DNA from: Bdellovibrio bacteriovorus
GTDB lineage: Bacteria > Bdellovibrionota > Bdellovibrionia > Bdellovibrionales > Bdellovibrionaceae
Assembly (NCBI RefSeq): GCF_001592755.1
Contig: NZ_LUKF01000016.1
Span: 310,001-374,000, forward strand
Length of the DNA stretch: 64,000 bases
Direction: 5' to 3'
Positions within the stretch are counted from its first letter, which is position 1. The number at the start of each line of letters is the position of its first letter. This document shows, piece by piece, positions 3,944 to 54,121 of this stretch. The translations under genes were made by a program, and so were the position numbers. The notes beneath the pieces were generated by a model. It ran no database searches. It was not told the DNA's origin and saw only the letters and a list, made by a program, of their open reading frames with translations.

Positions 3944-5320
3944 TTAATTGTCTTTAGTATCGATACCGTAGGCTTTGATCTTTCTGTGAAGATAACTTCT
4001 TTCCAGACCAATCACTTCTGCTGTCTTACTGATGTTTCCGCTATTTTCGGAAATCTTACGAAGCAGATAATCTTTTTCAAACTGAGCGCGGGCCTCACGG
4101 AATGTGGAAAGGTCCTGCATCTCGACTGCTTTTTCATCGTCTTTGTCGATAAGCCCTGCAAAACGCAAGTCATGGACGTCGACGAACTCTCCCGGAGTCA
4201 AAATATACACGCGCTCGATAAAGTTCTTAAGTTCGCGCACGTTTCCAGGCCAAGTGTAAGCAATCATTTTTTCGATCGCTTTTTCAGAAAAAACTTTTTT
4301 CGGATAACCGCTTTCGCGAGACACATTGTCAGAGAAATAAGACACCAACACAGGGATGTCTTCCATGTGTTCACGAAGTGCAGGAATGCGGAAAGGAATA
4401 ACGTTCAGACGATAATAAAGATCTTCGCGGAAGCGCCCCTCCTTAACCTCTTTCTCGAGATCTTTAGAAGAAGCAGCAATGACACGAACATCATTTTCGA
4501 TCAGTTCGTTACCACCAACGCGGGAGTATTTCTTTTCATCAAGATATTTTAAAAGTTTCGCCTGACATTCTTTGTTCATCTCGCAGATCTCTGCGATATA
4601 AAGCGTCCCACCTTGGGCTAGATCAAGTTTGCCTTTTTTTACTCGGTCTACGCCGGGCATAGCTCCCTTTTCGATACCGAAAATTTCGGAATCAAGAAGG
4701 TCTTCCGGGATACCACCGCAGTTGATTTCAACAAACGGACGGCTGGCACGCGCGCTCATGTAATGCACGTTTTGCGCAACAAGTTCTTTACCCGTGCCCG
4801 CCTCACCTTGAATTAACACCCAAGAGTTTGTTGGTGCCACACGCGCGATGATTTGTTTCGTCTGCATGATCGAAGCCGCTTCACCGATAAGCGCGATGGA
4901 CTTACGAAGTTTATTTAACAACAACGCTTTTTCTTCTTTTTGTTGTTGGTAACTAAGAATGTTTGAAATCACGATCAGGATCTTATCCATGGAAAGTGGT
5001 TTTTCGATAAAGTCCCAAGCGCCCAGCTTTGTTGATTTCACCGCCGTTTCAATCGTTCCGTGACCCGAGATCATCACGAACTCCAACTGCGGAAATTCTT
5101 TACGAGCCATTGTTAGAACTTCGATACCATCGTACTTGCCGGGCATCCAGATATCTTGAAACACAATATCAGGTTGAACTTCGCGGATAGCTTTCAGTCC
5201 GGACTCTCCATCATGAGCTAAGAAAACTTGATAGCCTTCGTCTTTCAAAGAAGCCGAAAGCACATCACGAATCGGAGCCTCGTCATCAATAATCAGAATT
5301 TTTGTATTTTGAGCTGTCAT
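3944..5320 (-). CDS. NtrX-like response regulator with degenerate AAA+ domain
   Basis: A 458-residue three-domain regulator. Residues 1-120 are a receiver with phospho-acceptor D56 (DIVFQDIWMPG) and MISGHGTIETAV. About 145-385 is a sigma-54 activator AAA+ domain with intact Walker A (GEAGTGKE, 172-179). At 219-224 GAMPGV replaces the sigma-54 contacting GAFTGA loop, and Walker B reads TLYIAE, with A243 in place of the metal-binding Asp. Residues about 425-450 form a Fis-type helix-turn-helix. Family knowledge: NtrX proteins of some alphaproteobacteria also lack GAFTGA and act as sigma-70 regulators. Thirteen bases separate it from the upstream ntrY-like kinase, its likely partner. I infer DNA binding without classical sigma-54 activation. 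Confidence 0.85.
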   Translation of the reverse strand: MTAQNTKILIIDDEAPIRDVLSASLKDEGYQVFLAHDGESGLKAIREVQPDIVFQDIWMPGKYDGIEVLTMARKEFPQLEFVMISGHGTIETAVKSTKLGAWDFIEKPLSMDKILIVISNILSYQQQKEEKALLLNKLRKSIALIGEAASIMQTKQIIARVAPTNSWVLIQGEAGTGKELVAQNVHYMSARASRPFVEINCGGIPEDLLDSEIFGIEKGAMPGVDRVKKGKLDLAQGGTLYIAEICEMNKECQAKLLKYLDEKKYSRVGGNELIENDVRVIAASSKDLEKEVKEGRFREDLYYRLNVIPFRIPALREHMEDIPVLVSYFSDNVSRESGYPKKVFSEKAIEKMIAYTWPGNVRELKNFIERVYILTPGEFVDVHDLRFAGLIDKDDEKAVEMQDLSTFREARAQFEKDYLLRKISENSGNISKTAEVIGLERSYLHRKIKAYGIDTKDN

Positions 5321-13478: not shown

Positions 13479-13832
13479 ATGAAAACTTTGGTTCTTATTT
13501 TCACTCTATTAATGGGCTTCTCGGCACAAGCAAACACGGCCTGTCTTTCAGAAGACCAAGCCCGTGAACAAATGCTTTTAAAAGAATCGACAGTGCTAAA
13601 AGCGCTTCATCAGAAAGCCGGAGTCCGTATTTGCAGAGGCACTCCGAACCAAGGATGCATCACTAAAACTCACTTCGTAAAAGCTATTTTAGCCTCAACA
13701 TGGAATGAGTATCATCAGGCGTTTGTCTCTAACACTCTGTACGGTTGGGATTGCGCCGCGGGAGCCTCTTGCTGGTTGCAAGTCGGCATTTCTTGCCAAG
13801 GTGATGTTAGACTTGTTGAAACTGGCGACTAG
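13479..13832 (+). CDS. Small secreted cysteine-containing protein
   Basis: The 117-residue product has a clean signal peptide (MKTLVLIFTLLMGFSAQA) and a mature part with seven cysteines, including CRGTPNQGC and CAAGASC, which probably form disulfides after export. Start ATG follows GAAGGAGA. No family recognised. Its stop codon overlaps by four bases the stop of the converging gene at 13829. Confidence 0.7.
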   Translation: MKTLVLIFTLLMGFSAQANTACLSEDQAREQMLLKESTVLKALHQKAGVRICRGTPNQGCITKTHFVKAILASTWNEYHQAFVSNTLYGWDCAAGASCWLQVGISCQGDVRLVETGD

Positions 13833-51874: not shown

Positions 51875-51932
51875 AAAAAAGTAGAACGAGCACTTACCGA
51901 AAGGATTTCAAAGATGCGCGTTCTACTTTTTT
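51875..51932 (+). repeat. Perfect 14-bp inverted repeat enclosing the yceI start
   Basis: The left arm runs A6-GTAGAACG (51875-51888), the right arm CGTTCTAC-T6 (51919-51932). The 30-base loop contains the AAGGA ribosome-binding site and the ATG at 51914; the right arm is codons 2-7. It looks like a terminator whose loop carries a start site. Regulation by structure or premature termination is possible. Confidence 0.7.
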
Positions 51933-52519
51933 CATTTCTAGCCACTACTCTTTTTTCTGCAACATCATTTGCCGAGAAGTTTGAGCTTGATAAGTCTCAC
52001 ACGGATGTCAGCTTCAGGGCACCTCACTTGATGGTTTCCAAAGTCAAAGGCCGTTTCGAAAAATTCGAAGGTACTTTCGACTTCGACGAAAAAACTCAAA
52101 AATTGGAAAACGTGTTCGTCAAAGTTTACACAGACTCTTTGAACACGAATGAGAAAGACCGCGACAAGCACTTACGCACGGCGGATTTCTTCGACGTTAA
52201 AAAATATCCAGAGATGACCTTCAAGGGAAACAAAGTTGATTACGACAATGGCAAGCCCGATAAAATTCATGGCGACCTGACTATTCGTGGTATCACGAAG
52301 CCGGCGACCTTCGACATCGACTACAAAGGCGCGGTCAACGATCCATGGGGAAATCGTGTCATTTCTTTCGAGGCTGAAGCTAAAGTAAATCGCAAAGACT
52401 TCGGTTTGAACTGGAATAAAGCGATGGACAAAGGCGGCTGGGTTGTCGGCGACGACATCGAAATCGAAATTGATGGCGAAGCCAAAGTAGCAAAACCTGC
52501 AGCTCCGGCAAAAAAATAG
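51914..52519 (+). CDS. YceI-family periplasmic lipocalin-like protein
   Basis: The 201-residue product has a signal peptide (1-20, ending SFA) and the YceI beta-barrel: DKSHTDVSFRAPHLMVSKVKGRF at the start, DLTIRGITKPATF in the middle and DFGLNWNKAM near the end. YceI proteins bind isoprenoid or quinone-like lipids in the periplasm. The C-terminus has an extra Ala/Pro/Lys tail (VAKPAAPAKK). The gene is followed after eight bases by the MNIO gene with a good ribosome-binding site, so it heads a three-gene operon. Its start codon lies within the loop of a 14-bp inverted repeat. Confidence 0.92.
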   Translation: MRVLLFSFLATTLFSATSFAEKFELDKSHTDVSFRAPHLMVSKVKGRFEKFEGTFDFDEKTQKLENVFVKVYTDSLNTNEKDRDKHLRTADFFDVKKYPEMTFKGNKVDYDNGKPDKIHGDLTIRGITKPATFDIDYKGAVNDPWGNRVISFEAEAKVNRKDFGLNWNKAMDKGGWVVGDDIEIEIDGEAKVAKPAAPAKK

Positions 52520-52527
52520 GAGCTGAC

Positions 52528-53382
52528 ATGCATCCCTCATCACGGACACATAAAGTGGGCTTAGGCCTTCGCCAGCCCCATTATTCCTATTTAGAAACCC
52601 GTCCTCAAACTGAAGCAGCTTGGTTTGAGGCGATCACAGAAAACTATCTGAATTCACGCGGGCGTCCTTTAGAGATGCTAAAGTTGATTCGTCAGGATTA
52701 CCCGGTGGCCCTGCACGGACTATCGATGAATATCGGATGCCCTGAAGGATTGCGTCTGGATTATTTGCAAAAACTGCGGGAGCTGATTGAACACGTCGAG
52801 CCTTTTATTGTTTCAGATCATCTTTGTTGGACGGGATCTCCGGACCAGAATCTTCATGATCTTCTGCCTCTCCCGTTTACAGAAGACAGCATTGAGACTT
52901 TGGTGAACAACATCGATTTCGTACAAAACTTTTTGCGTCGACCGCTAATTCTGGAAAATATTTCCACTTACATCAGCTATCGCAGCAACGAAATGAATGA
53001 GTGGGATTTTATTAGTGAAGTCAGCCGTCGCTCGGGTTGTGGGCTTCTGCTGGATATGAACAATGTGTATGTGAATTCCTATAATCACGGCTTTGACCCG
53101 AATTATTTCTTAAACCACATTCCTTTGGATCGCGTGGTGCAAGTTCACATGTCCGGTCCGACAAAATTTGAAGACATTCTTTTTGATAATCACGGGCAGG
53201 AAATTCCAGAACAAATCTGGGATTTATTCAAACTAATGGCGCCAAAAATTCGCCACTTGCCTATTTTAATTGAACGCGACGAAGACATTCCGGATTTCAA
53301 AGAACTTGAAGTCGAAGTGATGAAAGCAGTTTACATCTTGGAGGGCTCTCATGAATCTGAACGAAGCACAGAACCTGTTTAA
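52528..53382 (+). CDS. MNIO (DUF692) multinuclear non-heme iron oxidase, BufB/MbnB-like
   Basis: The 284-residue TIM-barrel enzyme shows the metal-ligand set expected for MNIOs: E38 (ITENYL), H63 (LHGLSMNIG), D97/H98 (VSDHL), E143 (LENIS), D176 with N179 (LLDMNNVYVN), H207 (VHMSG), D220/H222 (DNHGQ) and E249. Characterised members (MbnB, TglH, BufB) modify cysteine or other residues of ribosomal peptides such as methanobactin and bufferins. It overlaps the next gene, a DUF2063 protein, the usual recognition partner. No Cys-rich precursor (DUF2282) is encoded nearby; YceI takes that operon position instead. Confidence 0.92.
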   Translation: MHPSSRTHKVGLGLRQPHYSYLETRPQTEAAWFEAITENYLNSRGRPLEMLKLIRQDYPVALHGLSMNIGCPEGLRLDYLQKLRELIEHVEPFIVSDHLCWTGSPDQNLHDLLPLPFTEDSIETLVNNIDFVQNFLRRPLILENISTYISYRSNEMNEWDFISEVSRRSGCGLLLDMNNVYVNSYNHGFDPNYFLNHIPLDRVVQVHMSGPTKFEDILFDNHGQEIPEQIWDLFKLMAPKIRHLPILIERDEDIPDFKELEVEVMKAVYILEGSHESERSTEPV

Positions 53383-54121
53383 AAAAGGCCTTCTTGGCGA
53401 AAATGATCAGGCTTTTCAAAAAACTTTAAAAGCTGTAGGACAAATGTCTTTAGAGCGCGCTTTCAAAGTTTACAATCACAGCTACATCCGTCGCTTAACC
53501 GAAAGCTTGAAAGAAACTTATCCCGCGGTTTTTTGGGTTTTAGGTGCGGATTCATTTCAGCAAGTGGCGGCGGATTATATCAATGCGCAACCTTCGTTGT
53601 CTTATGATCTGGCTGCCCATGGAGCCGAGTTCCCGGCATTCCTAAAAACATCTTCGGTGTCTGCCGGTATTCCGTTTCTTTATGAGCTGGCCCGTTTTGA
53701 GTGGGCGATCAAAGACATGCATCACACACCCACGCCGCAGCCACTTTCTGAAGAACATATCGAAGAACTTTTGCGTGAAGAGGATTTCAAAGTTCACTTC
53801 ATCGAGTCCATGCATATTTTCGAAAGCCCTTACTCGATCTATGATGTTTGGAGACAGCGCAACGAGCGCACTTATCACTTTGAAGATATTCACTGGAGCC
53901 ATCCGGAGCATCTTTTGGTTTATAAGAAGCAAAGAAAGATTTATGTCCAAAGAATCGATGCCGTCGAAGCCCAAATCCTTTTGGATTTAAAAGAAGGGAA
54001 ATCGGTAGCGACAGCTTTGGCCGATTTTTCTCACGCTTTGAATGCGGAAAAAGTCACGCAGCTCTTAGAGATGATCACAAGAGCTGGCATTGTCGAAGAC
54101 GTTTTAGTTTTAGAGAATTAA
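53351..54121 (+). CDS. DUF2063 (BufC-like) partner protein
   Basis: The 256-residue protein has the DUF2063 N-terminal domain (about 1-95: [39 protein letters not shown]), followed by a less conserved C-terminal region (about 100-256) that in the family resembles a winged or RRE-like fold. In bufferin and related clusters this partner brings the precursor to the MNIO. The ATG at 53351 lies 32 bases inside the MNIO gene with GGAGGG upstream, so the two are made in fixed ratio. The stop overlaps that of the convergent chemoreceptor gene by four bases. Confidence 0.88.

Follow-up and report, generated by a model that had tools for sequence, protein, structure and literature searches.

The locus described here raises the question of what a peptide maturase does when the peptide is missing. 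MNIO enzymes are usually sought through the precursor gene that lies beside them, and the window, a stretch of 64,000 nucleotides of Bdellovibrio bacteriovorus DNA, encodes an MNIO (DUF692) enzyme and a DUF2063 partner behind a yceI gene with no precursor next to them. The operon is an unusual and testable case of a maturase being retained after loss of the precursor from a bufferin-2 cluster. Because close sisters occur both with and without the precursor, the fate of a maturase after the loss of its substrate can be traced stepwise and can be tested in laboratory predators.

A maturase pair of the bufferin-2 type without a precursor

The arrangement read from the sequence alone, with an MNIO gene 8 bp downstream of yceI and overlapping a DUF2063 gene (by 32 bp), was confirmed by the coordinates and the Pfam matches (Table 1). 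Upstream of yceI is a codirectional S8 protease gene, and downstream of the DUF2063 gene is a convergent chemoreceptor gene. Genome searches recovered a single MNIO gene and a single DUF2063 gene in the window genome. This MNIO is present in 19 of the 24 Bdellovibrio genomes, and in 18 of those the arrangement was found again with yceI adjoining the MNIO gene, a recurrence which argues that the operon arrangement is not due to chance. A scan for promoters and terminators gave a signal no higher than that in shuffled sequences.

Table 1. Positions in the window and assignments of the features of the yceI-MNIO-DUF2063 locus
Feature	Position	Strand	Evidence and remarks
yceI	51914-52519	+	Pfam YceI 6e-47, 160 bits; Sec signal peptide; bufferin-cluster-linked paralog, accessory
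yceI/MNIO junction, 8 bp	52520-52527	+	bufA2 site in G015, G026, and other genera
bufB-type MNIO (DUF692) maturase, 284 aa	52528-53382	+	MbnB_TglH_ChrH 1.7e-95; NCBIfam MNIO_BufB 316.9 bits
bufC-type partner, DUF2063 plus RRE-like C-terminal domain, 256 aa	53351-54121	+	Pfam DUF2063 3.7e-16, 59.6 bits

The score of the window MNIO passes the cut-off of the curated equivalog model for BufB bufferin maturases (NF050167; 310 bits for the whole protein), while its score against HvfB, 239.5 bits, misses the cut-off of 360. The full set of metal ligands claimed in the sequence-only reading is there: all nine metal-site residues were found (H63, H98, E143, D176, N179, H207, D220, H222, and E249), as they were in 109 of 110 comparison MNIOs. 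By its residues the window MNIO has a complete multi-iron metal site, with iron as the predicted metal. In HvfB, the replacement of N175, D242, or H244 by Ala or Ser abolished HvfBC activity (PMC13419390); by alignment, these residues correspond to N179, D220, and H222 of the window MNIO.

An AlphaFold2 model of the DUF2063 protein (pLDDT 85.6) matched TglI of TglHI (2e-7) and NGO1945 (3dee; 8.5e-4) in structure comparisons and, weakly, the lasso-peptide RRE protein TbiB1. As modeled, the partner has the TglI/NGO1945 fold, and its position downstream of the MNIO and its combination of DUF2063 and RRE (PME-type 1) are those of a bufferin-2 partner.

The locus thus shares with bufferin-2 clusters a BufB-type MNIO scoring over the cut-off, an overlapping DUF2063 and RRE partner, and the gene order. 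However, bufferin-2 clusters carry bufA2, with or without DoxX, whereas the window locus lacks bufA2 and has a dedicated yceI in front. In the published landscape of MNIO clusters the core consists of the precursor, MNIO, DUF2063, and DoxX, YceI is absent from the text, and additional conserved genes are rare (PMC12452194). The HvfABC oxazolin system of Haemophilus influenzae likewise combines an MNIO with a DUF2063-type partner (PMC13419390), but it includes HvfA, and a profile search for an HvfA-type precursor found no match in the window genome. MbnBC (methanobactin) and TglHI (pearlin) have the same enzyme and partner folds as the window pair, but their sequence similarity to it is distant, and the window locus has no MbnA- or TglA-type context.

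That no precursor lies beside the pair was borne out both by the 8-bp upstream gap and by profile searches of the genome, which were empty but which are blind to strongly diverged or new precursors. BufA2, which in bufferin-2 clusters normally lies immediately upstream of bufB, is missing from that position and was absent from the entire window genome by both the curated model and our own profile. A DUF2282 precursor, as in bufferin-1 systems, gave no match in the window genome at E values up to 1, and a profile of the EGKC/SCGD type, searched without a positive control, was likewise empty there. Conserved small Cys-containing open reading frames around the locus in the window group (defined below) proved to be shadow frames of conserved genes or a NuoE-like gene, and no precursor candidate was found among them. 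Elsewhere in the window (13479-13832), a 117-aa secreted-looking open reading frame with six Cys residues and no Pfam family is one possible trans-encoded substrate among many.

The probable ancestral cluster and the probable loss of bufA2

Across the order, an MNIO is present in 56 of 141 genomes. Between yceI and the MNIO gene, the congeneric genomes G015 and G026 encode a Sec peptide with the core ECHGVNSCKGKGxCGGxGHSCAGKNSCKGKG, as do five further loci of the order, and the tested peptides of this set, including those of G015 and G026, pass the curated NCBIfam BufA2 cut-off. The missing precursor had been expected to be of the DUF2282 type; in the relatives it is BufA2 that fills that place. 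For a wider neighborhood survey, 80 named loci were collected from public genomes by profile, and 76 were analyzed after four Bdellovibrio loci were left out. In 25 of these 76 loci, which include members of the Omnitrophota, Spirochaetota, and Bdellovibrionota, yceI lies upstream of the MNIO gene, and every one of the 25 encodes a Cys-rich Sec peptide between the two. The peptide is BufA2-like in 24 (one of which, L239, has a weak YceI score), and at the 25th (L209) it is another Cys-rich Sec-type peptide. The survey upheld the linkage of yceI to the MNIO-DUF2063 pair in relatives, and the occurrence of yceI-bufA2 linkage across phyla indicates that yceI-bufA2-bufB-bufC is an old arrangement.

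Several features of these clusters were seen in passing. In Omnitrophota yceI-bufA2 clusters, BufB and BufC are often a single fused protein of about 570 to 617 aa (L175, L178, L182, L184, L190, L193, L199, and others). Divergently beside the yceI-bufA2 clusters of L215 and L181 lies a gene pair (L215:1091-2313 and L181:675-2083) for an ECF sigma factor and the anti-sigma factor NrsF; ECF sigma/NrsF-type regulators have been reported for Buf1 and not for Buf2 clusters (PMC12452194). The BufB proteins of Nitrospirota metagenome-assembled genomes (L166 to L168, L170, L171, and L183), which have BufA2 and no yceI, are 52 to 54% identical to the window MNIO and closer to it than those of most other genera of the order, for which horizontal transfer is a possible explanation.

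Within Bdellovibrio, BufA2 was found in only 2 of the 24 genomes (G015 and G026), in both cases in cis, and the searches detected no copy elsewhere in the 24 genomes. The 17 of 19 MNIO-bearing genomes without bufA2 include the window group of 11 genomes (G000, G004, G006, G007, G009, G011, G012, G020, G021, G022, and G024), five of them single-contig assemblies (G004, G007, G009, G011, and G022), and a second group of six (G013, G014, G016, G018, G019, and G023). In an unrooted rpoB tree, the second group is placed beside G015 and G026 and not with the window group, with moderate support (71.6/70) as the sister of G015; the YceI tree agrees weakly with this placement. Given that outside genera have bufA2 at the same site, this tree placement makes at least two losses the simplest account, and bufA2 was probably lost at least twice in Bdellovibrio. 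G014, which is placed differently in the rpoB and MNIO trees, may represent a further loss. For the window group, comparison with the relatives indicates that the absence of bufA2 is a deletion. Genome searches and relatives together thus agree with the earlier description of the module as an MNIO and partner without their precursor, and we think it likely that the window operon is a bufferin-2 operon, ancestrally yceI-bufA2-bufB-bufC, from which bufA2 was deleted in most Bdellovibrio.

Other arrangements also occur in the genus. G017 (L244:4537-5346) has the DUF2063 partner alone, without yceI and with a 215-aa lipoprotein-like open reading frame upstream; a remnant at 4572-4625 encodes 18 residues of the MNIO C terminus overlapping the DUF2063 start. 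The yceI cluster is absent from the genome of G008, which carries two adjacent, divergent MNIO genes (L056, 7993-9956) with about 25% identity to the window MNIO and a 124-aa secreted-looking open reading frame directly upstream.

YceI as an accessory of the cluster

The linked yceI genes group in one clade with those that adjoin bufA2-MNIO clusters in other genera and phyla, and the paralogs in the same genomes fall outside it. The tree took in the strong YceI paralogs, with the weakest left out, and none of the strong paralogs from the five Bdellovibrio genomes without this MNIO or from G014, which keeps the MNIO-DUF2063 pair without a linked yceI, belonged to the linked clade. The absence of linked yceI where the MNIO is absent is as expected of a dedicated module, and on this phylogenetic evidence the linked yceI is a dedicated accessory gene. 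The sequence-only reading raised the possibility of a lipid-binding YceI as MNIO partner, which would be a new type of system, but the same yceI lies beside a normal BufA2 elsewhere; since YceI was already in the cluster alongside BufA2, it does not replace the precursor. Solved relatives of the linked YceI include polyisoprenoid-binding YceI proteins, and the linkage of yceI to bufA2 in several phyla points to a periplasmic protein that binds lipids or quinones as a regular component of some bufferin systems. In the open literature we found no paper tying YceI to bufferins or to MNIO/DUF692 and none tying Bdellovibrio bacteriovorus to YceI or DUF692.

Two probable fates of the MNIO after the probable loss of the precursor

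Within the window group, closely related pairs of MNIO genes have dN/dS values of 0.011 to 0.05, at dS values of 0.5 to 2 and with no broken frames, and all nine metal-site residues are kept in 11 of 11 proteins. The MNIO rate relative to that of the neighboring S8 protease is half of that in G015-G026, a comparison with a single pair. The intact metal site and strong purifying selection suggest that the window-group MNIO is probably an active enzyme. The second group has taken a different course: N179 is replaced by Ala and H222 by Lys or Arg in all six members, and G019 and G014 have lost further metal-site residues. These positions correspond to HvfB N175 and H244, which are essential there, and the second-group MNIOs therefore look like pseudoenzymes. 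The two that were scanned score below the BufB cut-off (G018, 272.7 bits; G014, 233.3 bits). Even so, the reading frames of the group are unbroken, and dN/dS remains at 0.07 to 0.13. When invariant positions were defined in the window group plus G015 and G026, 7 of the 119 in the MNIO were changed in all six members, 3 of these 7 being among ten listed active-site positions (P of about 0.013), compared with 0 of 55 in the DUF2063 protein. A model of the G018 MNIO keeps the MNIO fold, matching 3BWW and TglH. A loss of catalysis with retention of the complex fits this pattern better than general decay does. If true, the retention of MNIO pseudoenzymes in their operon would be a new outcome for the enzyme family.

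From what is known of the families, BufC of the ancestral system would have bound the leader of a Cys-rich peptide with a Sec signal through its RRE-like domain and presented the peptide to BufB, a multi-iron enzyme that would have oxidized Cys residues in the cytoplasm; after export, the modified peptide would have bound copper in the periplasm, the compartment in which YceI would also reside. For the window genome we prefer the reading in which the pair still has a substrate that is encoded elsewhere and is unlike known precursors, although conservation of the pair shows function and not catalysis. That the window-group pair remains catalytic on such a trans-encoded substrate, outside the known precursor profiles, seems to us about evenly poised between right and wrong. 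In the sister group, if the operon without catalytic residues still acts, it probably does so as a noncatalytic complex. A broader version, in which the pair was newly employed after the loss of the bufferin, as an active enzyme with a new, nonbufferin substrate in some genomes and elsewhere as a pseudoenzyme complex in the yceI operon, is offered tentatively.

It is unlikely that the BufB-BufC complex had already become noncatalytic before the sister group lost its residues, with a role as a scaffold, chaperone, or sensor that may be of service to YceI. Such a role would suit the six genomes that have all lost N179 and H222 (two of them with at least one further metal-site position replaced) while frames stay open, dN/dS stays well under 1, partner invariants are kept, and the G018 model retains its structural matches; it does not call for the full set of nine metal-site residues kept by the window group, nor for a rate of MNIO evolution that is slowest there. 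The steps of erosion seen in relatives allow the view of a module on its way out, including the metal-site losses of the six-genome group, the missing yceI of G014, the lone DUF2063 gene and MNIO remnant of G017, and the lack of both linked yceI and DUF2063 in G005, G008, G010, and G025. Nevertheless, a decaying relic that lost its remaining genes stepwise after bufA2 and has no important present function would be expected to carry stops and frameshifts and to have a dN/dS close to 1, and neither the constraint and unbroken frames of the window group nor the low ratios of the residue-less group, with its unchanged DUF2063 invariants, conform to this; we regard such a relic as quite improbable. 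Least probable is the proposal of the sequence-only reading that YceI or its Ala/Pro/Lys tail is the MNIO substrate. YceI lies directly upstream, in the usual position of an MNIO precursor, and has a Sec signal as bufferins do, and a Pro-containing tail is present in all window-group YceIs and not in G015 or G026. Known chemistry of the BufB/HvfB type acts on Cys, and no mature linked YceI of Bdellovibrio contains one, an argument that non-Cys chemistry would escape. The same yceI accompanies ordinary bufferin-2 clusters with a normal BufA2 in other genera and phyla, few group-specific invariant residues appeared in YceI after the loss of bufA2, G014 keeps the pair without a linked yceI, and the operon stays together even where the catalytic residues of the MNIO are lost.

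A further MNIO of the order with an altered metal site was seen in G136 (L053:8019-8837). A short open reading frame of 178 aa follows it at the expected DUF2063 position, with no BufA2-like gene, and this MNIO, with E143Q, N179S, H207R, H222R, and E249T, is possibly an independent pseudoenzyme.
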